Origin: Pontederia crassipes
Taxonomy: Eukaryota; Streptophyta; Magnoliopsida; Commelinales; Pontederiaceae
Assembly: GCA_030549335.1 (NCBI GenBank)
Contig: CM060189.1
Coordinates: forward strand, 52,670,917 to 52,734,916
Length of the DNA: 64,000 bases
Direction: 5' to 3'
The position numbers and the translations under genes were made by a program. Positions 1,314 to 43,166 of the stretch are shown here, piece after piece (position 1 is the stretch's first letter; every line of letters starts with the position of its first letter). Below the pieces are notes generated by a model, which saw only the letters and a list, made by a program, of their open reading frames with translations, was not told where the DNA came from and did no database searches.

Positions 1314-2513
1314 TGATCACTAGCTGATCATAGTATGTTTTTAACCCATTTTCTATTCAAATCATACATATCGAGCCCCTATTTTGCATAACTTTTGGCA
1401 AATTATGTTTGGAATGCATGGATTGTGATAACTAGTTGATCTTCCTCCTTTTATACTTAATTCCATGTGCATAGAGGCTCTGAAATGCTAAAATACATAA
1501 ATAATTCAATTCTATGTCAAGTTATCATTTTTAGGACAAGTTATCACTCCAATATGCCAGGTTATCATTATTTTGAGTGAACTAATTTTCAATGATTTTC
1601 TTGCCCTAAATCCATTATTATCATGAATGAATCATATTTGGATGGTCACATCTCAACTTGTGTAAACTTTTAAGTCCATTTGAACAAGTTATCATTTTTC
1701 CAATGCCAAGTTATCGTTAAAGGGAAATTCTATCATTTCGACATGCAACACCATTAATTCTGCACAAAGGCCTTAGGCAATCATTATATTATTATCTTAA
1801 CTCTTTGCTGTTCAAATTTGATCACATTTGGATAACCACAACAAAAGTTATGACAAGTTATCATTTTTAAGGTAAGCAAGTTATCATTTTGGCACCTAAG
1901 TTATCATTTTTATGAAATCATATTCATATTTGATTTCTGACTTCACTCACTTGCCACCCTAATCCATTTGATGCCTCTAATGCTTTGAATCACTTGCAAT
2001 TGGATAATTTCCATGATTAGTGCCAAGTTATCATTTCCGGGTTTCAAACCATTAGTTTTTCATATTGATTTCCACCCTTTGTATAACACCAAACTCCTTT
2101 TGATTATTGAGCTGAGTTTACTTGTTGTTCTTACCCTTATTTGTTTATTTCTTATTAGAGGACCTTGATACTTGCTGTTATGTGTCTTCTAGCAGGAAAA
2201 TAAATTGCCAAAAAGCTAGAAAAACGTGGGGGGGACCACTGGTTTACTGCCCAAAAGTTGTGCAGTCAGCTGGAATCTTCAGGACCAGTGGACAGGTGGC
2301 TGCAATCAGAGAGAATAGAACATTCTGATGAGGATCAAATGTGTACATGAGACATATAGAAGCTGGAATTTTTGGAGTAGCCAGGGGGGCTGGACATTGA
2401 GGGTTTGGAGCAAGGGTTTCTGCACCAGAGAGCTGCTGCTGCTACTAGAGTTGCTGCTGGCTGCTGAAGATCCTGCCAAGAAGCTTCAAGCAAGGATGAA
2501 TTGTACCTGTTCT
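1314..2513 (+). mobile_element. Element A1 3' LTR, first part (interrupted by element B)
   Basis: The LTR starts TGATCACTAG right after the purine tract. It matches, read by eye, the reverse complement of the LTR at 38453-40889, including GTGATAACTAGTTGATC, the stretch TTCCATGTGCATAGAGG and many copies of AAGTTATCA. It is interrupted at 2513 by element B and resumes at 10995, with GTTCT duplicated on both sides (2509-2513 and 10995-10999). The numerous AAGTTATCATT phrases lie between about 1530 and 2030. Confidence 0.82.
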
Positions 2514-4243
2514 TGATGCATGCAAAATACAACATATTTTAGTTAATTATTTTAATTAAATTTTCTATAATTTAATCATGGCATGCATCATTTTTAGTCA
2601 CTTTTAATCATAATTCCGGATTTATCAATTTTAATTATTAAATTCTCTGAATATTTTAATTGTGGATGGATTAACTAAATTTTGATAATTATTTTGCAGG
2701 AAAAAATGAGATTAAAATGGATTGTGCTGTATCGGCCAAAATTTCAAAGAATTTATCATTACGGCCGAGATTTGGCTTTACACCCAAGTCGTTACGGCCG
2801 AGATTCAAAAGGAGTAACAAGTTTAAATTCTTTGTTACGGCCGAGATTTAAAGGGGGTAAAGATAAATGGAATTTTATCTTTTGGGCGTAATGGCATGAA
2901 GATGAAGATGTTACGGCCGAGATTTGGAGGGGGTAATGGCAATGAAATCATCCGTTTGGCCGATATATGAAGGTGTAAAGATAAAATTGTTTGGGCGTAA
3001 AGATAAAAGGATTTTTATCTTTTGGGAGTAATGAAAAGGAGTAAAGATAAAATAATTTCCTTTCGGTCGAGACTCTAAGGGAGTAAAGATAAAAAGGATT
3101 TATCTTTGGGCGTAATGATAAAAGGATTTATCTTTGGCCGAGTTTATCTTATAATTTTAAAGTCAACCGTACGATGTTACGGCCGAGATCAAATTGAAGG
3201 CCGTCCACACCCTATAAATACGTGAAGAAATCCGTCGTTTCAATTGGTGCTTTGAAGTTCAGGTTTCTTCCACGGTGAGTCGTGAGCTCTGCAGGCTACG
3301 ACCAAAAGGAGAGAGGTGCGACGGCTGGAAGTTGATCGCGACCCTGATCAAGTCCGAGAGGCTGCCCGACTGTCTGCTCGTGATCCGAAGCTTCGACTTT
3401 TATCTATTTGGGTGTAATTCTTCTAATTATTATTATTTTGTTATTATCTCTCCAGAATTTCTAGGATGAACTCCATATTTTTAAGATTATTCATTTTAAG
3501 AGATTATTATTGAAGGGAAACTATTTGGACCCTATATTATTTATTTTATTTTTTTCCGATCAGTTAATTAATTATGCTTAATGCTTTTAATTTAATTACT
3601 TGGATTTCTGAATTGAGTACTTACCAGTTTGTGGATTATTTAATTTCAGAATTCATTAATTAAATTAATTGATTTATGTGAAATTAATAATTGACATAAA
3701 TTTGATAACTAGTGTGTGGAGAATCAAGTTTATGTGGTCTGTTAATCTAACCAGTTTGTGGAGTGATTAATAGTCTAGGATTTTCATATTAATGCATCTT
3801 AATTTCAATCTTATCTGACGAATACCAGTTTGTGGGACTTTAGGTTTGATTAAATTTAAGATAGTTTGATTTACCGGATTAAATAGTAGAATTACCAGTT
3901 TGTGGACCCTATGATGTTAATCTTGTAAATTAATAACTTGAGAAAATTCCTAATCCATCTTTAAAGATTAAATTTATCTTTTATGGTTCAAATATTTATC
4001 CTGATCTATTTTCATCCTAAGGCCTAATTTCAACACCATTATCTTATCTTTATCTTATTTTCTTTATTTCATAAAACCTCTTTTCCAAAAATCCATGTTT
4101 TTCCTCTCTTATTAATTTATAAATTCAGATATTGAATTAATAATATTCCTCGTGGGTTCGACACTCTTACTCCTTTTTACTATATTACTTGAGCGACTAG
4201 TGCACTTGCTAGCAAATTTTATTGTTACAAATACAACGCATCA
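2514..4243 (+). repeat. LTR of element B
   Basis: The LTR begins TGATGCATGC and ends GCATCA, two bases before the tRNA-Asp primer site. A TATA box, CCTATAAATA, lies at 3211-3220 and implies transcription starting near 3245. The U3 part (2740-3190) has about seven copies of TTACGGCCGAGATTT or close variants alternating with GGGCGTAAAGATAAA. The part after the start site holds four copies of ACCAGTTTGTGG (near 3634, 3750, 3826 and 3892). The first 487 bases are repeated in inverted orientation at 10508-10994. Confidence 0.85.
3211..3220 (+). promoter_or_regulatory. TATA box of element B LTR
   Basis: CCTATAAATA follows the phrase-rich U3 region and precedes a GC-richer transcribed stretch. Position and sequence fit an LTR core promoter. 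Confidence 0.6.
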
Positions 4244-4249
4244 AGTTTT

Positions 4250-4266
4250 TGGCGCCGTTGCCGGGG
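4250..4266 (+). other. Primer-binding site, tRNA-Asp
   Basis: TGGCGCCGTTGCCGGGG is the exact complement of the 3' end of plant tRNA-Asp, including its CCA tail. This is the known primer of Athila-type Ty3 elements. It fixes the LTR end at 4243. Confidence 0.9.
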
Positions 4267-4267
4267 A

Positions 4268-5700
4268 ATATTTTTATTAATTAATTTCTGATTTTTATGA
4301 ATTATTAAGAGATGTAAATAAAGTGTAAATAATCTTTTATAAATATGTATTAATTGTTTTAATTATTTTTTGTGAATAAACTGACATCTTTTCTTTTGCA
4401 GATAAAGGTCGCGACATTTTAGATTAAAATTGTTGACTTTGGCTAATGCTTTACGGAATTTCGGATTACTGTTGACTTATGGTTTTACGATCGAGATTGA
4501 TTTTTGTCGGCTTTACTGGTTTTACGGCTCGCAATATCGATTGAAATTTAATCTTCTGTTTTATAGCCGTAATTTTATCCGAACGTTGTCTTACGCCATG
4601 GATTTGATTTCGTTTTGGCCAAAGTAGTTTGTTCTATTTGATTTAATTTCGTTGTTTTACGGCCGTAAAAAAAATCGACTCAATTCACTTTCGGTCGTAA
4701 TGATTCAATTTTCGACATTTGAGTGGAGTAATATTCTCAAGTTTCATTCGAAATTATTTCGGCCGAAACCCTATTTTTCTTTACGGCCTCGTGTTGACTT
4801 CATCTCGGCCGATGTGACCTCGTCTTAATTGACAATTTAATCTTTTTACGGCCGAGAATGATCAAATGTTTTCTTTTTACGGCCGAGAATTGATCTCATA
4901 ATTTTACGGCCGTAAAATTTCTGAACATTTGTTTTTACGCCATCTTACGACCTTTTAGGCCAATTTATTTGTGATTTTTTTCATTCTCGGCCGTAACATT
5001 ATAACAGTTTAAACTTTTGATTTCACTTTGTTTTGGCCAAAGCGATTTAGTCTGTCTCGGCCATAATGGATCATCCGACATGGATTTTACTTCAACTCGG
5101 CCGTAATATATTTCTGAACGAATAAGTTTGATTTAATCTCATTTCGGCCGATTTATATGTGTTGATGTTTTACCTCACGTTCGACTTAATTTTCATCGAT
5201 TTACGACCGATATGAATCTTACTCGTCTTCGGCCGTAAAAATCGTCGACGTTGCATTCTCATTTTTATTTCGGTCGAACACCCTGTTTAGTTTTCTGCCG
5301 TATCGGCCGAAATTCCACGATAACTAGTTTGTTACGGCCGATCAATCTTATTTCCTCTCTGAAAATAATTTTTGATTATGTCTGATTATTAACTTTACGG
5401 CCGCAAATTAGTTTCGACTTATTTTGTCCCATTTGTTACATCATCATAAATTCTTTCGGTCGATATTAATATTTGGTATTTGTATTGGTTTGAAGAACCT
5501 TCGTTTGCAGTCGTAATTAGGTTTCTGAAAAGTTCCTCTCGAAAATTAATTTTAATTTTATCAGGCCGAAAGACTTTATTTGTTAAAAACTCATTTTTCG
5601 TGACCTATTATCTGAATTTCTTTCTTCTTGTATATATTTTCATTTTATTTTTTTTATCGTACTGAAAATTGGTTGTTGCAGGTACTAATTGAAAATTAAA
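4268..5700 (+). other. Leader of element B with CGGCCG phrases
   Basis: This noncoding leader lies between primer site and gag. It contains many copies of TTTACGGCCGTAA, TTTCGGCCGA and decayed variants in both orientations, so much of it is locally self-complementary. A T-rich stretch ending TTGCAG near 5682, just before gag, resembles a splice acceptor. I see no credible coding frame here. Confidence 0.6.
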
Positions 5701-5704
5701 TCAC

Positions 5705-7077
5705 AACCAATCCTGGAATCTTCTGATAAGCGCACTAGAAGTTCAAATCCACTGTTGGAATTTGATCCTGAAATTGAAAGAACCTATCATCGATTACGAA
5801 GAAATATAAGAAAAATGGCGGAACAAGCACGCGACAATCAGAGACTGTAGCAACAGAATGAACTGGTTCCACCACATAATAATCGGCAAGAAGATGAAGC
5901 AAAACTTTCTATGAGAGAATATGTCTCGGCCAGATACAGTGACCGAGAATCATGCATCGTGCTGCCTGACATTAACGCAAATAATTTTGAGATAAATCCC
6001 GCAATCGTGAGGATGATACAAGCATCCCAATTTGGAGGAGGATTTCATGAAGACCCTCACGATCTCCTTGACAAATTTCTTGCTACTCTGAGCACCTTTA
6101 GAAATAATAATATTTCTTCTGAAGTTATTCTTTTATTATTATTTCCTCAATCTTTACGTGACAAAGCTTCCACTTGGTTTAAAACTTTGCCTGCAGGATC
6201 GATTCACTCATGGTTGGAGCTGGTAGAAAAATTTGTTGGAAAATATTGCCCACCACAAAAAGCAGGCAAATATCGAAGGGAGCTGAGGGCATTTGTTCAA
6301 GACGATAACGAGATGTTATATGAAGCCTGGGAACGATATAAGGAACTGCTGGCCAGAGTTCCTGATAATAGAATTCCAAAGTGGCAAGTGATGGAAGATT
6401 TCTACCATGGATTATGACCTGCAGATCAAGACAAACTCGACCAATCAGCAGGAGGGACAGTGCTAGGATCTAAACGTCCTAGTGAGATACAAGATATAAT
6501 TGAAGCTGTAGCCCTCAAGTCGAGCCAAGAAAGGAGACCATCTCGCCGAACTCATGATGTACATGCTACACAAGGAATACAATCTTCAGAAATAGTGGCT
6601 CAGCTGGAGTCACTTAATCAAAAATTCGAGCAGATGATGTCACTAATGGGAAACTCTAGCAATTATAGCCCTACAGGTAACACTTCAGATTCAAATCAAA
6701 TTGAAAATGCTAACTTTATTTCCAATCCATTTTACAGGAACAACGATTATGGTTGGAGACACAATCCGAAGTTTGCCTATAATCAGAATCAAGGCCAATC
6801 TTCTGGTCCATCAAAAGATTATATACCGAAAAGGCAACCTGATACTCCCCAATATCAATCATCAAATCATATGCAGGAGATGATGGCACAGATCATAGAT
6901 ACAATGCAAGCGTTGCAAAAGAATATGGAATCTAGAGCCACGAGTCAGGATGCATCCATTCAAAATCTGGAAAGACAACTGGGCCAGATGGCGGCACAAC
7001 TAACTGGACGTATACCAGGCTCTCTCCCAAGCAACACAGAGAAAAATCCAAGAGGGGAAGAGCAAAATAGGCCTTGA
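5705..7077 (+). mobile_element. gag region of element B (fossil)
   Basis: This is an Athila-type Gag. The retrotransposon gag domain (about 5970-6417) shows the family signature: a FEINPA-type start, SLRDKASTWFKTLP, and the YEAWERYKELL stretch. The downstream part (to 7077) is rich in N, Q and S and ends in a predicted coiled segment with a RQLGQMAAQL motif, as in Athila Gag tails. I see no CCHC knuckle. The region is broken in about two places. No protease or polymerase follows, unlike complete Athila elements. Confidence 0.82.
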
Positions 7078-7344
7078 TTTTCATCAGAACTAAGTCAAGC
7101 TAACGACTATAAATCAAAACTATTTCTATCCTTTTTATTTTATTTTTTTAGATTAGTCTAATTAGTTGTTAATTAATATCTTAGTTTCGGTGATAGTTTT
7201 ATTTTTATTTTTAATTTTAATTAGACATTTATTTTATTATGGAGTCATTTAATTTAATTAATATTTAATTTTTGTAAGGAGAGGTAAACTCAGGGGCGTC
7301 AACTCCAAGCATGGGCGTAAATTCCAAGAATTGATTCCCTTCAC
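7078..7344. other. AT-rich spacer after gag of element B
   Basis: This T-rich noncoding stretch joins gag to the phrase-rich spacer. A similar T-rich stretch follows the gag-like part of fragment C1 (about 14470-14700). Nothing else is visible. Confidence 0.4.
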
Positions 7345-8270
7345 GTGACAAGACGAGGCTATTACGCCCTGCCACCTGTGCTCTCTACGGCCGAAGCTCG
7401 GACATTACGCCCTGCCACCTGTGCTCTCTACGGCCGAAGCTCGGACATTACGCCCTGCCACCCATCGTTTCCGTTACGGCCGAGATGCCACACCGGCCGC
7501 CACCTGACCGAAGAAAAGACAAGCTACCACCGTCGTTACGCCCTGCCACCATTCCGTTACGGCCGAGATGTCACACCAGCAGACCACGGACGTGCCTTGG
7601 AAATCGTCAAAGCTCCGACATGACAGGGAGACCACGGACGTGCCTTGGAAAAATGCATGCTTTTACGCCCGGACATGACTTTTCACTGCGTCGTCACGTG
7701 GGACAAGTCAGATTACGCCCAGAAATTCATCTATAAAATCCTACCCCCTCTTGTATGTTGCAGATCATTGCTTCTTTACGGCCGAAGCCACCGCGCGCCG
7801 CCCTCTGTGCATTACGGCCAAGGTGCTTCCGCTACCCTTACGCCTTTTCTTCTCTACGGCCGAAGTCTCAACACCATCACCGCCATTTGTTACGGCCGAA
7901 ATCTACAGGTTCATCTACTCTTACGGCCGAAGTTCCAGCGCCTCCCGGGTGCGTTACGGCCGATCAAAAACACCGCGCATCGAGACTTCTTTACGGCCGA
8001 GATTCCTCATCGACTTTCCTTTTTACGGCCGACACTTATTACGGCCGAGTTTCCACCGGAGCTAACTCCCTTACGGCCGAAGTTCCAGCGCCTCCCGGGT
8101 GCATTACGGCCGAGCCTCAACACCGCGCATCGACTTCTTTACGGCCGAAATCTCACCTCCATTTGTTACGGCCGAAATCTACAGGTTCATCTACTCTTAC
8201 GGCCGAAGTTCCAGCGTCTTCCCGACATTTTTTACGGCCGAGTCACCTCCGACCTTCAGCCGGTTCTTCA
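7345..8270. repeat. CGGCCGA phrase array in the internal spacer of element B
   Basis: About 19 copies of TTACGGCCGA(A/G) are spaced roughly 15-45 bases apart in a GC-rich spacer. Larger duplications are superimposed. One unit of about 45 bases (ATTACGCCCTGCCACCTG onward) is repeated in tandem at about 7360-7449. A block near 7919-8000 recurs at 8068-8150, sharing AAGTTCCAGCGCCTCCCGGG. All frames look open here because the phrase reads as YGR, TAE or LRP depending on frame; this is not evidence of a protein. A TTTTTGTCCAG acceptor-like site lies at its end (about 8342), before the ORF-1-like frame. Confidence 0.8.
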
Positions 8271-8491
8271 TCGAATACTACGGTCAAAACCTCAGCCGCT
8301 TCCACCGAGCCGGTACCTTTTCTTTGTTTATTTTTGTCCAGATCAAGATGAGGCGATTTGCTAATATATGGAGGGGACGTCATGAACGACGACATCCGAA
8401 TGCTTAGCCGGCCCCACAGCCCTCACAATTAATCTCCTACCCCGGAGATTATTATTGGACTAAGCCGGAGTATCAAGCTCGATATGAACGG

Positions 8492-10021
8492 ATGTGTGAT
8501 ATTCGAATTCATGCCACCAGATTTTCAGATACTGAATTGCTTAGGGAGTATAATTTACTTGCAGATATTCATCTATTATTTTCTCAAATTAGACTATCTG
8601 ACTTTGTGCATTCTTGGTGGCCAACTTATGAAGTACTAATTATGAAATTCCTCTCATCTCTGGAAGTCTTTAATTTAGATGGCAGGAACTATGATCAGCC
8701 CCGCATTTCATTTCAACTTTATGGACGGCCATTTACTCTCACTTTAGGAGAGATTAATAATATCTATGGATTTCCCAACCATGGATCTCTTTCTGTACCT
8801 GCTGACTTTGATGCTGAAACTTTTTGGAAACAGATAACAGAAGAAGACCGATTGGTTTGGAACACCGCTAAAGATAGCTCAATTCAGAATCCTGTTCTGC
8901 GCTACGTCCATCGCATGCTAAGCAACACCATAAGTGGACGCAGTGATAATGATGGTGCCGTCTCAGAAGGAGAGTTATATCTCATCCACAGCATGCTTCA
9001 CAGAACTCCTGTTAATGTGGGTGCCTTCCTCATTCGTCGATTCCAGCGCTGCACTACTCATCGTGGCGGTAGCATTAATATGGATGCCCTTCTCACACCT
9101 ATCGCTCAGCACCTACAACTTGACTTGGATGATCTTGAAGTTGTGCCAGGAAACACTCACCTCACTCGTAGGACCATTCAAGCTATGGGTCTCGTGAAGA
9201 CCAACAACTCAGGGATCAAAGTTTTTATTTTTAAAGGCCACCATCAGGAGGTGCCCTGCTCAGATCGAGATGCTTTTACGCCGATTAATTCAAATAATTG
9301 GCTCCTTTTTAGGCAGGTCATAGCTCCAGTAATCCCACCTGCAGGACCATCTACCTCTGTCGGACAGCTACACCAGGATGAACCTTTCTCCTGGTTTGAT
9401 TCTACTGATTATGCGGCAGCCCAACCCTACCTTCAACAGCAACAAGGATTCCAGGCTGCATCACCGGCAGCTTCCCAATATGCCACATCCGTCCATTCAC
9501 CTTATATGCCGGTGCCTTCTCCGATTCCATCTCCAGCACAAGAGAGCTCTTCTGATTCCTCGTTCATACCTTCTACTCCTTATGAGGAACGCGATTCGAT
9601 GGAAGTATCTGCCCCTTTACAAGAACCTGTGCAGAATCGCTATATAGCACCGGAGCCCACTTTTACTTCAGCCCCAGAGCAGACTTACTATCCACCTCCG
9701 CCACCTCAGCCTGACTATGCTTCCATGCAAAACTTATGGGAATCAATGTATGATGAACAACTTCGTCAAGCAGGGGAGTTTCACACTTTTCAAGAAGAGC
9801 AACTTCGTCAGTCAGGGCAGTTGCACGCTATTCAGGAAAAGCAACTTCGACAAGCACAAGAGTTGACCAACATTCGAGCTAATTTTAGAAATATGGATGA
9901 TCGTCAGGGTCGCTTCGAATCCCTTCAGAATCAACATGCGCGCCTGAAGAGACGCATCCATGAGTATCATATGTGCCAAGGAAATCTCGGCTACCATCCA
10001 CCATCGCCACCCCGCAGATAG
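8492..10021 (+). mobile_element. ATHILA ORF-1-like protein of element B
   Basis: This 509-residue frame sits after gag. Residues 1-250 resemble the plant ATHILA ORF-1 family and related mobile-domain proteins: WPTYEVLIMKFLSSLEV, then ISFQLYGRPFTLTLGEINNIYGFP, and a C-terminal helical part of the domain with a DLDDLEVVPGNTHLTRRTI stretch. Residues 300-400 are rich in proline, serine and glutamine. Residues 410-470 hold three or four 16-residue repeats built on EQLRQ-G-H-Q, which would form a coiled coil. The function of this family is unknown. Its placement behind a possible splice acceptor suggests a spliced subgenomic RNA, as known for the downstream gene of Athila relatives; that is inference. 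Confidence 0.7.
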
Positions 10022-10507
10022 TAAATCCGGTTGTGTCTTTTCCCTTTTCTTTATTTTTGTTTCTTTAAATTTTCCTTTTTATTAAGTATGTATCACTTTC
10101 CCTTGCTGGCTTAACACTGAGGACAGTGTCTAGTTCAAACTTGGGGGAGTTTGCATTTCACGCATTGCATGTTTCTTTCTGTTTATTTGCTTATGTTTGC
10201 ATCTATTTATAAAAAAATCCAAAAAAATTGAGAATTTTGAAAATTTTCTAAAAAATACCATTGCATGCATTTATTTTTGCTACCATCTAACAAACTCTTG
10301 TCTTATTGTTTTAATTGTCTTTTAGTAGAAGTTCAAAGACATGTCGTTAATTGATGAAATTTGAATACTTTTCTTTCTTATCACTTGCTATTTTAGTATC
10401 AAACTTATGGACTATGTGCCTATGCTAAGTAGAATTATGAATGACTAGACGACAAAATCATATTCATGCCTTTTTATTTCTTTTAAGTCTTGATAGTCGT
10501 AGCCTTC
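10022..10507 (+). other. 3' noncoding region of element B with purine tract
   Basis: GAGGACAGTGTCTAGTTCAAACTTGGGGGAG (key core CTTGGGGGAG, about 10140) matches the purine tract style of the A1 element near 325. A normal 3' LTR would be expected after this stretch. An inverted LTR terminus follows instead at 10508. Confidence 0.55.
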
Positions 10508-10994
10508 TTACGCCCAAACAATTTTATCTTTACACCTTCATATATCGGCCAAACGGATGATTTCATTGCCATTACCCCCTCCAAATCTCGGCCGTAACAT
10601 CTTCATCTTCATGCCATTACGCCCAAAAGATAAAATTCCATTTATCTTTACCCCCTTTAAATCTCGGCCGTAACAAAGAATTTAAACTTGTTACTCCTTT
10701 TGAATCTCGGCCGTAACGACTTGGGTGTAAAGCCAAATCTCGGCCGTAATGATAAATTCTTTGAAATTTTGGCCGATACAGCACAATCCATTTTAATCTC
10801 GATTTTTCCTGCAAAATAATTATCAAAATTTAGTTAATCCATCCATAATTAAAATATTCAGAGAATTTAATAATTAAAATTGATAAATCCGGAATTATGA
10901 TTAAAAGTGACAAAAAATGATGCATGCCATGATCAAATTATAGAAAATTTAATTAAAATAATTAACTAAAATATGTTGTATTTTGCATGCATCA
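10508..10994 (-). repeat. Inverted copy of the LTR 5' end of element B
   Basis: The reverse complement of this segment matches bases 2514-3000 over the same length, 487 bases, with about five differences by eye. It ends at GCATGCATCA, followed by the duplicated target GTTCT. Both outer ends of element B are therefore the same LTR terminus, facing in opposite directions. Confidence 0.9.
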
Positions 10995-13488
10995 GTTCTC
11001 CATTCCATTTTATGTCAAGCTTTGTAAATATGAGGAGCTAAACTCCATTTCTTCTAGGATAGGGTAGTAGTCTAGGTTAATTTTGGATGGATATGGACTG
11101 AAATTAATCCTGCACTGCAATCATTTCTGGTTTTCAGATTTTAGCACTGTTTTGAATTGAATCTTGCAATTGTTAGATCCCATTGTAATGTATAACTGAG
11201 AAGTTATCATTTGATCTAATCTTCCTTCAGAAATGAATTAAGAGTCAATGTCAAGTTTCTGGATTCCATTTTATTTGAAAATCTGATTTTTGATTTCTGG
11301 TTTCTTGATTTCCTGGTTTTCTAAAATTTCTGAATCTGATTTCTAAGGCTGTTTGAATCTGTTTGTCATTCTCAATCTGATTAATTAAGCAACTGAGAGG
11401 TTGCTATTGCCCCCCATCTTGTTCAGAAATGAATCAAGATGTTTGGCATACTTTTGATTCAAATTAGTTTGCTCTTATGATTTCTGAATTTTAATTCTGA
11501 AATCTGTTTTTTGATTTCTTTGGAATTTGTCTTGCCAATTGAACCCCTGATTTCATTCAATCACTGAGAGGTGAGCCTTAGGGATTTCTTGCAGTCTAGA
11601 GATGGGTCAAGAAGCAATTGGCAAGCCTAAATTCCATTGATTAATATTTCTGATTCCTTGAATTGCTGATTTCTTTTTGAATTCTGATTTCAATTGTCAA
11701 GCCTCATTTTAATCCACTACTGAGAGGTAGTCTTAAGGTCTTCCTTGAAGAGTCAGAGATGAACCAAGGAGCATTGGATTATCACTGAATTCTCCATTTT
11801 AGATAGGATGTCTTTTAACCCTAATTAATTAGAGTTTGTGTGGTTTCATTTTCTTTTGCAACCGAGAGGTTGATTTCAAATACCCCTGAAATTCAGAGAT
11901 GAACTAAGGAGCACAAGCACTATTATTGGGTAGATTTCATCATAGTTTAACTAATTGAAGTGATTTCATTATTTTATGATTGCGATTACAAGTTATCACT
12001 TCAGATTTCCTTGAATTGTAAAAATCAGCAATGAACTTTCATTTGAGCCCAACGATAACTTGATTTTCTGTGAAGATCCTCTTCTGATTCAACCTAACTA
12101 ACAATTATATGATAATATGTTGCTTAGTTAAAGGCCAATTGAGCTGTGAGAGCAGCAATATTTCAGGTTGAATCAAAATTGAACTTTTAATGATAACTTG
12201 ATCTAATCCATCCTTAATTAATTTAGATGAACCCCAACTCCTAGGAGAACCTTCCTCATTGATAGTTAAACCTTTTTAGTCTTTAATCTAGCATTTATAA
12301 TTTAGTTTTGACAAATTTCCAAAACCCCAAAAATAGTTATCATTTTGCATTTCATTAAAAATTTGTTTTCACTTCTAATTAAAATTTGTTTTTTTCTATT
12401 TTAAATAGGATTAGTCTAAATTGTTTTTAGGTAGTCTAGGACTTCAAATTATTGTGGATATGACATTTAGGGTTACTACAATTGACTTGTGCACTGCAGT
12501 AGAGAGTGAGTTAGGGAGTTGAAATAAAAATTGGAAAAATTGACTTTTGACTTAAAAATCAGCAAGTTATCATTCAACCCCTCAATTTCACTTATCACTA
12601 TTGAAAAACCCCTGATTCCATCATCACTTAGAAGTGAACTTAGGGTTATCTTGTTGTTCAGAGATGGACCAAGAAGCAATGGCATGTGTTGAATTCCAAT
12701 GTGTGATATGTGCTGGTTTTATCCAATTGATTAGTACTAATGTGGATTTCATTTCAATTTACAACTGAGAGGCTGATTTAAAATTCCCTTGTTGTTTAGA
12801 GATAAACCAAGAAGCATTAGCATTTGGATTGGATTCAAAGCATTTCTGAGTAGTTGACGTGTGGTTTGGTTGAACTGTCAAACTGAAATTGCCAAAATCT
12901 GAGAAGAAATGGCAAAATCAGTGAGGGACTTGTGCATATGCTAATGATAACTTGACATTCAGTGGGGATCCTTCTCTAATCCAACCTAGCTAACATTTAT
13001 ATGAGAATATAATGATTAGTTTTGGACTAATTAATCTGTGAGAGCAACCATACTTAAGGTTGAATCAGATTTGATTTAAAATTGTTAAAATGTTCCATTC
13101 CATCCATAGCTGAATTAGATGAACCCAACCCCTAGGAGAACCTTTCCATTGATTGACAAACTCTTTTTAGTCCTCAATTCAGTAATTAGATCTCAGTTCA
13201 TTTCTATTATCAAAACACAAAAAATAGTTATCCTTTTTGTCACTTTTAAAAATATGTTTTCACTTTCCTTTAATTTCCTAATTTTGTCACTTTAGTTAGG
13301 TCTAGTTTAGATTGTTTTAGAGAGTCATTGGCTTCAAATCACTGTGGATACGATATTTGGGTCTATTACAATTGACCTGTGCACTTGCAATAAAGAGTGA
13401 GTTTAGGGAGTTAAATAAAAAATTGAAAATTTCCAATTCTGACCACAAAATCAGCAAGTTATCACTATACTCTACTTAAGTCACATCA
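10995..13488 (+). mobile_element. Element A1 3' LTR, second part
   Basis: This is the continuation of the A1 LTR after element B. It ends TCACATCA at 13488; in the A2 copy the matching point is followed by the tRNA-Asp primer site. Between about 11190 and 12830 there are six or seven diverged modules with the layout ACTGAGAGGT, about 30 bases, CAGAGATGAACCAAGAAGC. A larger tandem duplication with an offset near 890 bases is also visible: about 11700-12570 against 12600-13470. Landmarks are CTCCTAGGAGAACC at 12238 and its partner near 13130, and GTGCACTGCAG near 12490 against GTGCACTTGCA near 13380. Confidence 0.8.
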
Positions 13489-14700
13489 TGAGTCGAAACA
13501 ACATGATGCCTCAACAAATAGATTATGAAGACTTCTCTTTGGATCTAGAAGCTATCATCTTAAGCAAGTTGAATTTCATGCTGAAAAGCAATCATATCAA
13601 ATCGAAAATCTGAAGAGTCAATTTTCAAACTCGCAACATCGAAGCAACGAGTCCAAGGATGTCATCACATCACTTCTCGAAGCAAAGTCTTCAATTGAGC
13701 CAAAAGTCAACCTCGAAGGGATGATGACCAAACTTATTAAAATAATTAAAAGGAAGCTCAAAATATAGGATCAACACATTCAAAATTTGATGGCTCAATT
13801 AACACAAATTCAAAAGCAAATCGAAGTAGATTATTCGATACGGAGCTCAAGTTCGATGCCTTGGAAGAAAAGTTACATGCATTAGAGAGTCAAGTTGTAC
13901 AATTGACTAAATTAAATTCTAAAGCACCAAAGCACAACAACGAGAGCCCAATCATCATTATGTGCCCATGCCACCATCAACATCCATATTAAAGAAGTGG
14001 GCATCCAAGAACAAAGACTTTAGTTAGGACAGCAACTACGCAATAGCGTATTAAGGAGCTCGCCTTCGGAGGTCCCCACTATTCAAACTTCGTCTCCAAC
14101 ACCAACATCATCATCAACAACACTGACAGTCACATCTTTACAAATTCAAGAATCGCCAAGGAGAGAAAGAACGTCATTGACATCAATAGAGACCTCTCCG
14201 ACTAATACACAACAGTGAAAAATCAAAGGAAAACAAAGAAGCACATCACCGACCTCAAACACACCAACCACATTAGTCCAATGGTGAATAAAAAAGTCAC
14301 TCAATTATCCATGATAATCGACAACACAACTCACAAATTAAGAATGTTGCTATGCTTAAGAACCATCACTACTGGACGATGGCAGAAAAGTGAAAACTTT
14401 GGACGTCATCCACCAGTATACTTGCTGAGCCTCACCATGATAGGGGTTCACGATCACATCAAATAATTTTGGTGAGATTGTTCCTTAATTCCGTAATTAT
14501 TTATTTGAGTGTTTGATTATCTTATATCAGTCTTAGCATGCATATTATAGTCAAGCTAAAGACTTTAAATTAGATATATTCTCTCACCTCTATCTCTTAG
14601 TTTGAATTTTATTTTTCATTTGATTAGATTAGTTTCTCTTTCATAATTTAGTGTCTTGTTTGATTTTTATTTTTGTTATTTTTATCAGCAGGTTCAAAAA
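13489..14700 (+). mobile_element. Fragment C1: gag-like remnant of an older LTR element
   Basis: This is broken coding DNA with short frames rich in K, Q, S and N, including an EAKSSIEPKVNLEGMMTKL stretch and LMAQLTQIQKQIE. This resembles the C-terminal half of an Athila-type Gag. A1 inserted its LTR end directly into it at 13488/13489. A T-rich spacer follows (about 14470-14700), then a phrase-rich spacer, which is the same order of parts as in element B. Old, with several breaks. Confidence 0.5.
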
Positions 14701-35170: not shown

Positions 35171-35939
35171 CTAGGGGATGGATTGGAATCTGAAAAAACC
35201 CTGAGTAGCCATCCAGATAGCAAAAATGAGAGTGCTTGGCCAACCTCTCTAGCATCTGATCAATAAAGGGAAGAGGGAAGTGGTCCTTCCTGGTTGCCTT
35301 ATTCAATTTCCTAAAATCAATGCACATTCTCCACCCAGTCACTATCCTAATAGAGATCAATTATTCTGAATCTGATTTGACTACTATAATCCCTCCTTTC
35401 TTTGGCACAACTTGGACTGGACTGACCCATTCATTATCTGAAATGAAATATTTAATTCCAGCATTCAACAATTTCAAGACTTCCTTTTTGACAACTTCCT
35501 TCATCATTGGATTCAATCTTCTTTGGCATTCAATTGTGGGCTTGTAATTGTCCTCCATGGGAACCTTATGCATGCAAATTGAAGGATTAATCCCTTTGAT
35601 ATCTTCAATTGAGTAGTCAATTACTTCCTTATACAATTTCAGTCTCTTTAGTAACTCTTGAACTTGGTCTTGAGGCAAATTGGTATTAATGATAACTAGA
35701 AATGTGGAATTCTCTCCTAAGAATTCATACTTGAGATTGCTAGGGAGAGGTTTCAACTCCAATTTAGAAGAGTTGTCTTGAGTTGGAGTGGCTTGGAGTT
35801 CACTAGTGAAAACTTTCTGCACCACATTCTGAATTTCATATTTGTCCACTGATTTGAATGAATTCAGCTCAGATTGGCATGCCTTAGCCTCTGGATCTTC
35901 TAGTTCCTTCAAGTGATCAAACATTAGACACCTTTGCAA
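35171..35939 (-). mobile_element. Polymerase start of element A2 (linker and part of RT; fossil)
   Basis: This contains the linker between protease and polymerase (ELKPLPSNLKYEFLGEN and YSIEDIKGINPSICMHKV, typical of Ty3 plant elements), the QRRLNPMMKEVVKKEVLKLL stretch and the first part of the reverse transcriptase (CIDFRKLNKATRKDHFPLPF, then GYSGFFQIPIHP). Broken. Confidence 0.88.
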
Positions 35940-36014
35940 GGGGTCTTCAATAAGAATTATTGCAGAAACTTGCTTTACAATCTGATCAAGTTGTGCATCT
36001 TCAAAATCATTTTG

Positions 36015-36960
36015 CTAAAAATTTGGCCTGCTGATAACTTGAGCCAGGTTGAACTCTACCTTGTCCTCTCCAATTTGAAATGTCAATCTACCCTCCTTAA
36101 CATCTATGACAACTCCTACAGTGGCTAGGAAGGGTCTCCCTAATAGAATTGGGGTGTTCAGGTCCTCATCCATGTCAAGTACTACAAAGTCCACAAGAAT
36201 ATAAAATTTTCCAACTTTGAGGAGTATGTCTTCAAGAATTCCATGTGGATACTTGATGGATCTGTCAGCTAGTTGCAAGGACATGTTGGTGGGCTTCATA
36301 TCTCCAACTTCTAACTTCCTACAAAGTGATAGAGAGATTACACTCACTGATGCACACAAATCACACATTGCCCTCTGAATTTTTCTATTCCCAATTTCAC
36401 AAGAAATTGAGAAGCTTCTTGGATCCTTTAGCTTGGGAGGCAACTTATTTTGGATGATGGCAGAAGCCTCCTCAGTCAAAGCTATGATCTCATGCTCCAT
36501 GATTCTCCTTTTCTTGGTCAATATCTCCTTTAGGAACTTGGCATATGAGGGCATTTCCTGAATTGCCTCCACAAATGGCACATTGATATACAACTTCTTC
36601 AAAATTTTCAGGAATCTCCCATATTGCTGATCTTGCCTAGCCTTGACCAATCTTTGTGGGAATGGCACCTTATCAAAAATTTTGGTCTTGGCTTCATTTT
36701 GAAGATTCTGATTTCTGGTTTCCACCACAGTCAGTTGACTTTTCAGCAGTTTTGGACTTTGATTTGCTTGGGCTGGATTGTTCTCAACATTCTTCATTGG
36801 TTCTTTAACAATCCTCCCACTTCTGAGCTGGACAGCTTGGACTTGCTCCTTAGGATTGACTTTTGGTTGTCCTGGGAAGAACATGGGTGGCCTAGTTGAG
36901 GTACTAGCTTGTTGGGCAATCTGATTTTCAAGAATCTTTTGGTGGGCACTCAAGGTCTCA
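36015..36960 (-). mobile_element. Protease region of element A2 (fossil)
   Basis: The segment contains the Athila-type aspartic protease domain: the active-site region at about 36365-36340, then SLQLADRSIKYPHGILEDIL, a VGKF-VDFVVLDMDED stretch, and ILLGRPFLAT. It matches the retropepsin-like domain of Ty3 elements. It is preceded by a linker rich in K, Q and P. Confidence 0.88.
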
Positions 36961-38257
36961 TATCCAGTGGTCAATTTATGCATTGCCTCCTCTTGCTTCT
37001 CCTGCTTCTTCAGAATTTGTTGCACTAACTCCTCCATTTTTTAGAATTGAGTGGCTTGAGCTTGTGGTGGCTCATATGGAGGTGGTTGATAGTTGAAGAC
37101 TGATTCTGATATAGAGGTGGTTGATTCCTTGGCAGGATCTTAGCCTGCCAATTAGAATTTTGCATGGGTGACCTTTGGTAATGATTGGCCTTGTAGGAGA
37201 AGTAGGGATGGTTCCTATTTTCTGGAGTATAGAACTCAGCAAGGGGCTTCACTCCATAATTCCCCACAGCATTCACTTGGTCAATGGATTGTTCATATTG
37301 CTGCATAATGAGGTTGCAACTCTCTGTGATATGTTCTTGGTTTCCACACACATCACACTTGGCTTCAGAATTGGATGCCTTTCCCACATTAGTTGACAAA
37401 TTCAGCTTCTCCAAGGCCTTTTGCAGGACTTCTTCAATCTGAATTGAAATATTGTTGACTTGGTTATCATTTGATGGCCTCCTTGTCCTATCATGAGCGA
37501 GGAAGTGGTAATTCTTGGCAATGTTCTGAATTAATTGGTAAGCCTTATCAATATTCTTGGATGCAAAAATCCCTCCTGCAGCTGTGTCTAGTGCCACCTT
37601 GGATGGATAATTTTGACCCTTGTGGAAATAGTTGACTAATTGCCCTTTTTTATACCCATGGTGTGGACATGCCCTCAACAAGCTTTGAAGTCTTTGTCAT
37701 GCATCACATATGTTCTCCTGATCCAATTGGTAAAACATGACAATCTGGTCCCTATAGTTATCAGTTTTGCTAGGTGAAAAGAATTCAGCTAGAAACAATT
37801 GAACTATGGACTCCCAAGTGGCAATCTCTTCAGGTTTGAGGGTCTTGTACCAAGTCTTGGCCATGTCCTTAAGTGAAAAGGGGAATAGCCTCATGTACAC
37901 AGCATTCATAGGGGTATTGTTGAAGTGGACAGTGCCGCATATCTCTTTGATGTTGTCAAGGTGTGAAGCTGGATCCTCATTCCCCAATCCAGCAAATTGA
38001 TATTGCCTTATCATTGTAACCAATGCTAGATTCACTTCAAAGTTAGCAACAGGTGCTAAGGCTCCATCCCCTTATTGATTTCTGACATTGCTGGGTGAAT
38101 AACAATCTTTGAGTGTTCTTGGTGCAGCCATGTTAACCTCTTCTTCTTCTTTTTCAAAAATTCTTTTTATTGCCTCTTCCCTTTGCAATCTCCTACTTCT
38201 CAAAAATCTCCTTTCAAGTTCAGGATCTGCTAGATAATAGTCCTCTTGATTATTCAA
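36960..38257 (-). mobile_element. gag region of element A2 (fossil)
   Basis: This is an Athila-type Gag: MNNQEDYYLADPELER near the start, the gag domain with LFPFSLKDMAKTWYKTLKPE and FFSPSKTDNYRDQI (about 37980-37730), then a zinc knuckle of CCHC type (CDVCGNQEHITESC, about 37350) and a coiled tail. The region is broken in more than one place. Gag forms the particle that packages the element's RNA. Confidence 0.85.
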
Positions 38258-38452
38258 ATCTTACATAAATAAATTCAGAAGTATCGAATTCAGAAAAGAA
38301 AGAAAACTGGACAAAAATGAAAAATTCATAATGATAACTTGCAAAAGCTGAAAATTGGGTTAATAAATGGGCTGATAACTAGTCTAAAATTAATCTAAAT
38401 TATCTAAGTTAATCTAATTGATCTTAAATCTCCGATAACGGTGTCAAAAACT

Positions 38453-40889
38453 TAATGTGAGTTAAGTAGAGTATAGTGATAACTTTCTGATTTTGTGATC
38501 AGAATTGGAAATTTTGAATTTTTGATTTAACTCCCTAAAATCACTCTCTACTGCAAGTGCACAGGTCAATTGTAATAGACCCAAATGTCATATCCATAGT
38601 GATTTGAAACCAATGACTCCCTAAAACAATTTAGACTAGCCTTAACTAAAGTGACAAAATCAGAAAATTAAAGGAAAGTGAAAACAGGTTTTTAAAAGTG
38701 ACAAAAAGGATAACTATTTTTGGTGTTTTGATAATAGAAATGAACTGATATCTAATTACTGAATTGAGGACTAAAAATGGTTTGTCAATCAATGGAAATG
38801 TTCTCCTAAGTGTTAGGGTTCATCTAATTCAGTTATGGATGGAATGAAACATTTTAACAATTTTAAATCAAATCTGATTCAACCTTAAGTATGGCTGCTC
38901 TCACAGCTTAATTAGTCCAAAACTAATCATTATATTCTCATATAAATGTTAGCTAGGTTGGATTAGAGAAGGATCCCCACTGAATGCCAAGTTATCATTA
39001 ACATATGCACAAGTCGCTCACTGATTTTGCCATTTCTTCTCAGATTTTGGCAATTTCAGTTTGGCACTTCAACCAAACCACACATCAACTACTTAGAAAT
39101 GCTATGAATCCAATCCAAATGCTAATGCTTCTTGGTTTATCTCTAAACAACAAGAGAATTTTAAATCAACCTCTCAGTTGTAAATTGAAATGAAATCCAC
39201 ATTAGTATTAATCAATTGGATAAAATCAGCACATATCACACATTGAAATTCAGCACATGCCATTGCTTCTTGGTCCATCTCTGAACAGCAAGATAACCCT
39301 AAGTTCACTTCTTGGTGATGATGGAATCAGGGGTTTTTCAACAGCAAGACAGATTCCACAAATTTCAGGAAATCAGAATTTGAAAATCAGAAATCAGAAA
39401 ATAAGAATTTTGCAACAATTCAGGGATTGAAATCTTAGAAATACCATTGTTTCTTGATTCATTTCTGAACAAGAATGAAACCATAAAGCAACCTCTTAGT
39501 TGTTAATTCAATTAGGGCTCCACAATGATAAAAATAGATTCAACAAAAATTCAGGAATCAGAAATGGAAAATAGATTTTAGAAATAAATGAATCAGATTC
39601 CTAATTGGGGATTGAACTTAGAAACTTGACATTGGTTCTTGATTCATTTCTGAACAAAGAGTAGATCAAAGGACAACCTTTCAGTTGTAAATATAAGTAG
39701 GACCTCCAATGTCAAGAACAGATCCATAAAAATCAGAATTTCAGAAATCAGAAAATCAGAACTTGAATTCAGTGCAGGAAATCAGATTGGTTTTTCATCC
39801 ATCCACAACTAAATTAGACTACTACCCTATCCTAGGAGAGATTGGATTTGCTCCTCATAATTACAAAGATTGATACAAAATAGGAGAAGGAATCCATGCT
39901 AAACATTCTGAATTTAAAAAATAAAATTCTGTCCAAAGGAATCAGATGTAGATCCCTTCTTCAGCTCTTGCCTTAGCTCTCTTCTGATCCAGGAACCCCT
40001 GCAATGGCTAGCCCCCCTTTCCATCTAGATTCTACAGCTTATATATGATCTTGTCCACCCTTGGATGAAGATTAGAATGTTCCATTCCCCTCTGATTATG
40101 CCAAGTGTCATGGTCCAGAAATAATGGCAGGTGCAGTAGCTTTTGGATAGCAAAAAGCAAGTGGTCCCCCCTCCTTTTCCAGCCTTGTTTTCTCTGCTAG
40201 AAAGGCGAAAACAACAAGCATCAAAGTCCTTGAATAGGATTTAAACAAATAAGGATTAGAACAGCAACTAGTATCAGCTCTATTGTCAAATGAGATTTGG
40301 TGTTGTGCAAGAATGAAATCCTTATTTGTTTAATGATAACTTATTGCCCGAAATGATAACTTTGTACCATATCATCAAAATTGTCCAAATATGAGTGGTT
40401 CAGAGCAAAGGGATTAGGATAGTAAGTAAATGAGGTCAATTATCAAGTGTGGATAATATTTCATAGGAATGATAACTTGAGCCCGGAATGATAACTTTGC
40501 ACAAAGAATGATAACTTTTGAAATGGGATGATTACTTTGCACAAATTGAACAATGAACATCCAAATATGATTAATTCATAATAGCAAGGGATTTAGGGCA
40601 AGATAACCGCTAGAAATCAGCTCAATTAGTAAAATGATAACTTCATGACTTGGAATGATAACTTGCCCAAAAACTAATAACTTGGCATAGAATTGATAAC
40701 TTTATGGATTTTAGCAATTCAAAACCTCTATGCACATGGAATTAAGTGTAAAATGAGGATGATCAGCTGGTTATCACAATCCATTGCATTCCATGCATAA
40801 TTGGCCAAAAGTAAGACAAAATGAGGGCTCGACAAGGGTGAAATGAATGGAAAATGGAGTAAAAACTTAATATGATCGACTAGTGATCA
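38453..40889 (-). repeat. LTR of element A2
   Basis: On the minus strand it runs from TGATCACTAG (40889) to CACATTA (38453). It shares with the A1 LTR the AAGTTATCATT phrases (about 40890-40250), the block GGATAGGGTAGTAGTCTA, and the modules ACTGAGAGGT to CAGAGATGGACCAAGAAGC. It is about 2.4 kb against about 3.7 kb for A1. The difference is largely the number of modules and the 890-base tandem duplication in A1. Confidence 0.88.
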
Positions 40890-43166
40890 ACTCGTTGTTA
40901 TCTTATTGTGAACTTTATATTGCTGGACAACAACTTTGTCTTCCTCAATTTGTTGTTGTGACTCGTTGTTATCTCATTGTGAACTTTAAGTTGTTGCATA
41001 GCAACTTTGTCTTCATCCATTTGTTGATTGGTGGATGTTTTCTTCTTTCCCATTGAGGATGTAGTGATATGAGCGTGATAGTTGAGTCGTGTACTAAAGA
41101 TGTAAACCTGAAAACTTAACACAAGTAAGAGAAAAGGTGAAAGCAAAAAATAATAATAAAGTTTCAAAATACCATAAAATTAGACTAGTAAGTAAAGAAT
41201 AATTTTCCGACAACGGCGCCAAAAACTTGATGCAAGAATTGATAACAATTAAATGCTAGAAAGTGCACTAGTCGAACCCACAAGAAATTAACTTACTTAA
41301 TTAAACATATTTCAAAGGCTCATAGGAGACAACATGGTTTGGGTAAAAGATGTGCATAAAATAAAATTGTAGAAAAGTAAATACTAAAATTAAATTAATC
41401 TAATCTAATCTACTGAAGCATAGGGCTTAGGATGATAAAAGAAATTGTAGACAAACTAAATTGCCCAAATATTACAAGTTAGTTTTTGATGACAAATTAG
41501 AGTCTACTCAAATTATTGATTTCCTTCTAGTATCAGTCACCCTACCTTAATTTAAATTAGATTAAGACTACTCCATCATGGATCATAATCTAATCAAATC
41601 TAAAATTAAGATGCATTAAAATGTAGTCTCTAAACTATTATCACCCATACCACGATAATGATTAATAGATCGCACAACTAATATTCCGTCAAAGATTATA
41701 CGAGTTGTGACATGCAATACTTGGACTTAAAAGTCAAGAAATAATTTCACAGAAATCATACAATCAAAAGTAACTACTCCAACAAGGACGATAGCTAACT
41801 ATAGAAGGCAATTAATCTAAAAATCATTAATAATAGCATGCATATTCGAAAGAAAACTGAACTATAATCGATTATGAAATAAGATTTAACAGTTTGCTTT
41901 TAACGATTAAAATTGTTACAATTGTCTCAAACAAAAAATGAAACTAAAAGAATCCAAATTACTAAAGATAGAATAATGTATCAATTAAACATAAAATCAT
42001 CCCAATAGAAGGTAGAGCGGAGAGTTCTCTCGGGAACATCGAAGAACTGTTGCCCGATTTTTGTCTCGAGTCAATCGTGTAGAAATTATTTCAACGAGCC
42101 CTCTGAAGTTCTCCCATGTTCTTAGCTTCAAAGCTCTAGTTGTAGGCCCTAGAATTCTGGCTACTGGATGTCCCTTTTTATAGAGGGCCAGGTTTCCATG
42201 AGGTTTGAAAATAAACGAAAACCTTTTTCCATGTGAAAAAAAGTAAATTCGAAGTTCTATTGATTATGAAAGTTTTGCCTTGTAAAACTCTAAAATTTCT
42301 AATCTAATTTGTTTCCAATTGATCTCTATGACATGTGATAAGAGTTGGAGTCTTGGTGCATTGAGAATTCTTTCTAAAATAAACTATGAGTTGAATTTTG
42401 TGTCTACACGCTCCCTGTAATTGATTTATGGCTCAATCAGAATCAAAATTAGATTTTCCTACTATCTTCACGGGGCGTGAGAAGAGTTTCACGGTCGTGA
42501 TTCGGGCGATTTTTCTTCGACCGCACGACTTTGTGTGATTTCACGGCCGGTGACAAAGTACTAATGGCCCATGAAGATTACTGTATCGATCTAGAGCATT
42601 CTAGTCAACCCATTAAGCGTAGATCATAGGCTATTAGTTGATGATCATCAATTCAAAACCTTCTGTGATGTCCGTGAAAACTATGTAACGGCCGGTAATA
42701 TCGTAATCTTTGGACTATAACAGTCCGTTAGTCTTGGCTCATGGCTCGTGATAATTCTTCCATATCTGCTTCATTATAGGAACCATGAGAATGTGCAATT
42801 TGTGAAAATCTGTTGTAACAATCGTAATAAATATGTCACAGTTCGTAAGTTATCTTCATTTGAACTGAGCACCGCTTGGTCCGTGAAATGCAATGGTTGG
42901 CGTGAAAGTTGGTCTTCACGGCCGTGATACATATGTAACGGCCCATGAAACCATGTTTTCTTCATTTGACTGTTTCTGGCAGAGCCGTGCGGATGGGCGG
43001 ATGAGGCGTGAGATTGTATATTACGGCTCATGAGAGGATGGTCACGGCCCGTGAAATCTATTTTTATATGTAAGCAATTCTATAAAAATAGATGCATGTT
43101 ATGAATAAATTACGCAAAATAAGCATAAATGCAAGTCTAATTATATGTTATAAAATGGATGCATCA
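40890..43166 (-). mobile_element. Element C2: LTR plus gag start, minus strand
   Basis: The LTR runs from TGATGCATCC (43166) to TGCATCA (41228) on the minus strand. It is followed by an excellent tRNA-Asp primer site, TTTTTGGCGCCGTTG (about 41225-41211), and a short gag start (MGKKKTSTNQQMDEDK, about 41050). At 40890 the sequence passes into element A2, which inserted here. A 71-base unit is repeated in tandem at 40890-41030. A TATA box CTCTATAAAAAGGG lies near 42170-42187 (minus). The LTR start resembles that of element B (TGATGCATGC). Confidence 0.8.
42460..43060. repeat. CACGGCCGTGA phrase array in LTR C2
   Basis: At least twelve copies or variants of TCACGGCCGTGA, GTAACGGCCCATGA and TTACGGCTCATGAG lie upstream of the TATA box of this minus-strand LTR. 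The consensus is self-complementary. It belongs to the same phrase family as the spacer array of fragment C1 at 14740-15900. Confidence 0.75.

Follow-up and report, generated by a model that had tools for sequence, protein, structure and literature searches.

The 64,000-nt stretch of Pontederia crassipes DNA analysed here (the window) contains, at positions 2514 to 10994, an element of 8481 bp that has the parts of a long terminal repeat (LTR) retrotransposon on its left side and in its interior, and that ends on the right in an inverted copy of the first 487 bases of its own 5' LTR. Both outer ends of the element are the same U3 terminus and both adjoin the 5-bp sequence GTTCT. In this study, we describe the element and the LTR into which it is inserted, and we weigh how two U3 ends may have come to lie in one chromosomal copy. 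The most probable source is an aberrant linear complementary DNA (cDNA) that carried a U3 end on both sides.

Anatomy of the element and its ends

From left to right the element and its borders are made up as follows.

2509 to 2513, no strand: left target-site copy GTTCT, from sequence comparison of both borders.
2514 to 4243, plus strand: complete 5' LTR of 1730 bp, TGATGCATGC...CAACGCATCA, its right boundary taken from the primer site and a homologous border between LTR and primer site.
2514 to 3000, plus strand: LTR bases 1 to 487, which are repeated inverted at the right end (self-comparison).
4250 to 4267, plus strand: primer-binding-site motif TGGCGCCGTTGCCGGGGA, matched without mismatch.
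5851 to 7077, plus strand: gag region of two consecutive stop-to-stop open reading frames (ORFs) in one frame, 5851 to 6417 and 6418 to 7077 (Pfam).
7078 to 8407, plus strand: interval of 1330 bp from gag to the ATHILA ORF with many copies of TTACGGCC and no pol domain detected (ORF and Pfam scan, motif count).
8408 to 10021, plus strand: ORF of 537 codons with the ATHILA ORF-1 domain PF03078 (Pfam).
10119 to 10149, plus strand: 3' untranslated region motif GAGGACAGTGT...ACTTGGGGGAG (motif search).
10508 to 10514, plus strand: inner breakpoint, where the inverted arm opens with the family motif copy TTACGCC (motif position).
10508 to 10994, minus strand: inverted copy of LTR bases 1 to 487, ending in the U3 terminus (self-comparison).
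10995 to 10999, no strand: right target-site copy GTTCT, from sequence comparison of both borders.

The LTR runs from TGATGC to GCATCA, its U3 and U5 ends both carrying TGATGC. The right boundary of the LTR was set via the primer site, 6 bp past the LTR end, and via a homologous border on the minus strand, where a related LTR (41228 to 43166) ends at 41228 before a TGGCGCCGTTGCCGGGGA motif with 3 mismatches. TGATGC is common to U3 and U5 in this related LTR as well; in the LTR that hosts the insertion (described below) only TGAT is shared. A leader of 1.6 kb with no ORF of at least 90 amino acids separates the primer site from gag. The first gag ORF contains the Retrotrans_gag domain PF03732 (E 1.6e-18) and is divided by a stop from the second ORF in the same frame, and the ATHILA domain is matched with E 1.4e-20 and 74 bits (cutoff 20.2). 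The internal region ends at 10507, 486 bp beyond the ATHILA ORF. Motifs similar to GAGGACAGTGT...ACTTGGGGGAG are present in the host element at 324 and at about 1300 to 1313, the latter directly preceding its LTR. The interval behind gag contains a perfect 43-bp tandem duplication at 7361 to 7446, and its part from 7093 to 7224 resembles 14549 to 14688 (69%) and may correspond to the sequence that ordinarily lies behind pol.

The two arms form an inverted repeat of 487 nt that is 99% complementary, with no gap and five mismatches, at 2574, 2596, 2662, 2706 and 2707. The left outer edge reads TGATGCATGC, the right one its complement. Before the GTTCT copies stand T on the left and A on the right, and after them T and C; since these flanking bases differ, the duplication measures exactly 5 bp. 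An exact 5-mer on both sides is expected by chance in about 1 of 1024 cases. Length, identity and exact position led us to drop a chance inverted repeat and a chance target duplication. A self-comparison of the element recovered the repeat, and within the 64-kb window self-comparison revealed no second direct copy of the LTR and no direct 3' LTR; under the stricter comparison nothing but the inverted arm matches the LTR, or any portion of it, over more than 100 nt. At a laxer score the arm match extends to 535 nt at 94.8%, and repeats of 119 to 229 nt inside the LTR and its arm are found together with a 60% match of 3573 to 4308 to a related minus-strand LTR. A preliminary description, made from the sequence, had reported a full left LTR with primer site, an inverted 487-base LTR copy at the right border, the same terminus beside GTTCT at both outer edges and an arm divergence of about 1 percent, and all of these were recovered. 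That description is silent on the breakpoint motif, the TGATGC common to U3 and U5, the nesting inside a further LTR and the lack of pol.

The arm difference of 5/487 (1.03%) points to a recent event. At a plant substitution rate of about 1e-8 per site per year, this would place the event roughly half a million years ago.

Among the 11 ORFs of at least 90 amino acids, the Pfam scan detected no domain of a protease, a reverse transcriptase or an integrase (no search aimed at short decayed remnants was made), no transposase match above cutoff and no tyrosine recombinase (shorter ORFs were not scanned). PF20167, a putative plant transposon protein, remained under its cutoff (30.3 versus 45 bits) and overlaps the ATHILA domain. 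The element has TG...CA ends and a 5-bp target duplication, as an intact LTR retrotransposon does, and lacks the two direct LTRs; it has neither the tyrosine recombinase ORF of DIRS elements nor the transposase and non-LTR inverted repeats of a DNA transposon, its arms being LTR U3 sequence. The preliminary description's "DNA-transposon-style" ends are accordingly a resemblance only. By its ATHILA ORF-1 domain and a primer site 6 bp from the LTR end, the element seems to be of the Athila type. We take TGGCGCCGTTGCCGGGGA to match tRNA-Asp. In a survey of plant LTR elements, the ATHILA ORF-1 domain is reported for 16% of Athila elements (PMC6317226), and the primer site of Diaspora is described as lying 5 bp beyond the LTR end, as in Calypso, with tRNA-Asp as the Diaspora primer (PMC1142308).

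The LTR at the target site

The element is inserted into an LTR of another element.

1314 to 13488, plus strand: the target, a 3' LTR that belongs to a different Athila-like element and is interrupted by the insertion, with AGCTTGGGGGAATT directly before it and a match to a minus-strand LTR.

A second LTR of the host kind lies on the minus strand at about 38453 to 40889, followed by primer-site-like sequence and, past it, by a gag-related stretch at 38044 to 37616 (36% over 143 amino acids against the gag of the present element). Against this second LTR, alignment of the left flank of the insertion reaches 2406 (39994), and that of the right flank begins at 11007 (39881). The stretch in between measures 114 nt in the joined flanks, counted with one GTTCT, compared with 112 nt in the second copy. 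Because of this local spacing, there is no sign that host DNA was lost between the insertion points, and the target looks locally like one continuous LTR. Identity near the insertion site is only 67-68%.

About 0.93 kb of the host LTR is duplicated in tandem, in diverged form (11684 to 13522, 69%), which may partly account for its greater length relative to the other copy. On the minus strand, 35361 to 43166 comprises two successive Athila-like LTRs (41228 to 43166 and about 38453 to 40889), each followed by primer-site-like sequence, and after both a gag-like stretch and the protease domain PF13650. A direct repeat of 0.6 kb at 32.5 to 34.4 kb was considered as a normal LTR pair and rejected, its aligned part showing by eye no TG...CA borders. 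Farther right, an ORF with RVT_1 and zf-RVT domains (59890 to 61548) probably belongs to an element of the long interspersed nuclear element (LINE) type, and 51513 to 52828 is a more decayed relative.

Origin of the two U3 ends

The inverted arm opens at 10508 exactly on TTACGCC, the inverse of LTR bases 481 to 487. This sequence is one form of a motif, TTACG(G)CC (TTACGGCC or TTACGCC), with 53 copies on both strands of the element (37 of TTACGGCC and 16 of TTACGCC, counts that take in the copies within the duplicated arm and count two palindromic places on both strands). Outside the element the motif is absent from the 2513 bases to the left and occurs once in each form in the 53006 bases to the right, and 200 single-base shuffles of the element yielded means of 0.1 (TTACGGCC) and 0.7 (TTACGCC). 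Its copies in the element are spread over LTR, leader, inter-ORF region and right arm, and the ATHILA ORF contains it at one place. Motif edges fall on 3 of the 1730 LTR positions in the observed orientation, and on 8 in either orientation. A switch from one motif copy to another would leave just such an arm edge, coinciding with a motif edge.

With an exact U3 terminus and GTTCT at both edges, the ends look joined 5 bp apart, as in normal integration. Matching 5-bp duplications directly beside two U3 termini mean that the two ends entered the target as processed cDNA ends, unless a later event imitates such an outcome. In the simplest history only one joint is abnormal (10507/10508), and it formed before integration. 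We therefore favour, as probable, an origin from a linear cDNA that was aberrant in bearing U3 at both ends; that integrase joined two U3 ends of such a cDNA had already been put forward in the preliminary description and is in our judgement the best reading, with strand switching during reverse transcription, also named there, as a good route to it.

The element's anatomy, its exact ends, its target duplication, the breakpoint motif and the lack of a detected pol domain are observations, whereas each enzymatic step by which a cDNA with two U3 ends arose and was inserted is a proposal. We tentatively put forward, at somewhat less than even confidence, that a flap was copied. The growing plus strand, near the internal 3' end, would leave its minus-strand template at a copy of TTACG(G)CC and re-anneal to the inverted motif, LTR bases 481 to 487, in plus-sense U3. 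The plus-sense template would most likely be the displaced flap of plus-strand strong-stop DNA at the 3' polypurine tract, the 5' end of which would be single-stranded, plus-sense and terminated exactly at the U3 terminus. Copying of the flap from base 487 to its 5' end would then give a second exact U3 terminus, the right arm. Finally, the integrase of an autonomous partner would pair both U3 ends and insert the molecule normally with a 5-bp duplication. The other sub-route, in which the ends of two broken cDNAs are joined at the motif, would give the same product. Since no pol was found in the element, integrase would have been supplied in trans, and the copy would have depended on that of a partner. 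Pairing of U3 with U3 may be eased by the first 6 bases (TGATGC), which both ends share with U5. The duplication itself is of the ordinary kind: 5-bp duplications are reported for 93.4% of plant LTR elements, with near-random sequence and 1008 of the 1024 possible 5-mers represented (PMC6317226). The integrase of human T-cell leukaemia virus type 1 (HTLV-1) is described as performing concerted insertion of two LTR-end mimics in vitro with donors made from U5 or from U3 (PMC6705210); that both mimics in one reaction are the same end is our reading.

Several points weigh against this origin. The HTLV-1 integrase is reported to disfavour U3 donors strongly, and the integrases of human and simian immunodeficiency virus (HIV-1, SIV) to prefer U5 (PMC6705210). 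The motif-edge statistic was made post hoc, the site having already been seen, and the microhomology is visible from the LTR side only. At the target, the 107 bp adjoining the insertion on the left align poorly with the other host-type LTR, a laxer score begins the right-flank match at 10981, within the arm, which makes the alignment ends fuzzy, and one host LTR copy exceeds the other by 1252 bp (3689 versus 2437), with internal duplications elsewhere in them. The empty-site comparison is consequently a local one, which rests on the spacing and the right flank.

The alternative that survives best, unlikely though it is, places the change after a normal insertion: microhomology-driven template-switch repair would have replaced the 3' LTR, passing from the right flank through GTTCT into the terminal TGATGC, from there to the TGATGC of the 5' LTR, and after 487 copied bases rejoining at the motif. 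As U3 and U5 ends share TGATGC, the duplication would survive such a repair, and the inner junction does lie on a repeated motif. Two switches are needed, though, and one would have to fall in the terminal 6 bases of a 1730-bp LTR; a switch elsewhere would be expected to leave U5 remnants or break the duplication.

Alternatively, two family members in opposite orientation could have lost the DNA between them, one outer U3 end of each being kept, with GTTCT matching by chance or through entry of the second member at the same 5 bp. The density and nesting of elements of this type in the window would suit such a history; the odds of about 1 in 1024 for a chance match, the improbability of a second hit at identical 5 bp and the spacing of the flanks, with no sign of host DNA lost between them, make it quite improbable. 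An assembly fault, with a piece of LTR from another place attached in inverted orientation at about 10508, we hold slightly less credible still. Such repeats may give rise to errors, but a misjoin would import the right flank of another insertion, normally without GTTCT or a continuation of the host LTR, and the right flank does continue the host LTR (from 11007 onward it matches 39881 downward). Autointegration of the cDNA, the self-integration of the preliminary description, is well known for retroelements but has next to no likelihood here, as its reported products are nonproductive deletion or inversion circles (PMC2644782), it would move ends and could not alone equip a linear molecule with the same U3 terminus at either end, and the inner joint lies at LTR base 487 and not at an LTR terminus.

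Family, significance and comparison with known systems

If the aberrant-cDNA origin is true, the element would be evidence from nature that two identical U3 ends can be joined into a chromosome, correctly spaced, by the integrase of a plant retrotransposon; it would equally be evidence that strong-stop DNA of the plus strand can serve as a copied template. It is doubtful that such copies recur in a family without pol, in which TTACG(G)CC would promote flap switching, the shared TGATGC would let the integrase of a partner accept U3 pairs and the family would spread with inverted ends. Structure-based LTR finders generally demand direct orientation of the LTRs. As described for one survey, they require a 5' and a 3' LTR (PMC6317226). 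Copies with two U3 ends would be missed by them.

Among the open-licence papers listed on inverted LTRs, strand switching, autointegration, end use and Athila (10 of 81 in one listing, 20 of 28 in that on Athila), no title or abstract beginning describes an LTR element inserted with U3 at both ends, which is no proof of absence. In viral contigs, the ATHILA ORF had no pattern match and the primer site and the LTR terminus had no exact match; the gag pattern matched one stretch, which encodes no relative and was rejected. Among genome contigs, one contains the primer site, Streptomyces clavifer JCM 5059 BMWJ01000030.1 (3922 bp, 36.5% G+C). Its sole match to the window is 28 bases long (contig 971 to 998), covering the primer site and its borders, and the contig is probably plant contamination.

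DIRS-1 and other tyrosine-recombinase retrotransposons are similar in that their terminal repeats are inverted; DIRS is not known to leave a target duplication, whereas the present element has one of 5 bp and is otherwise an ordinary LTR element. In DIRS-1 two inverted LTRs are described as regular, and the tyrosine recombinase presumably inserts circular forms (PMC5633606). Aberrant retroviral and Ty1 cDNAs (autointegrants, two-LTR circles whose junction is near-palindromic) would share with it an origin in faulty cDNA synthesis or in faulty use of the ends by integrase, but the forms reported are circles, the autointegrants being termed nonproductive (PMC2644782, PMC1905944), whereas the present form is chromosomal with a clean duplication. 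A third known system is the Athila lineage of plant Ty3/gypsy elements (Athila, Calypso, Diaspora), with which the element shares a TG...CA LTR of 1.7 kb, a near primer site, a long leader, gag, a downstream ATHILA ORF-1 domain and a 5-bp duplication, and from which it differs in having no detected pol, no direct 3' LTR and, as its right end, the inverted 5' U3. It is a known kind of defective copy whose right end is unusual, with one case so far.

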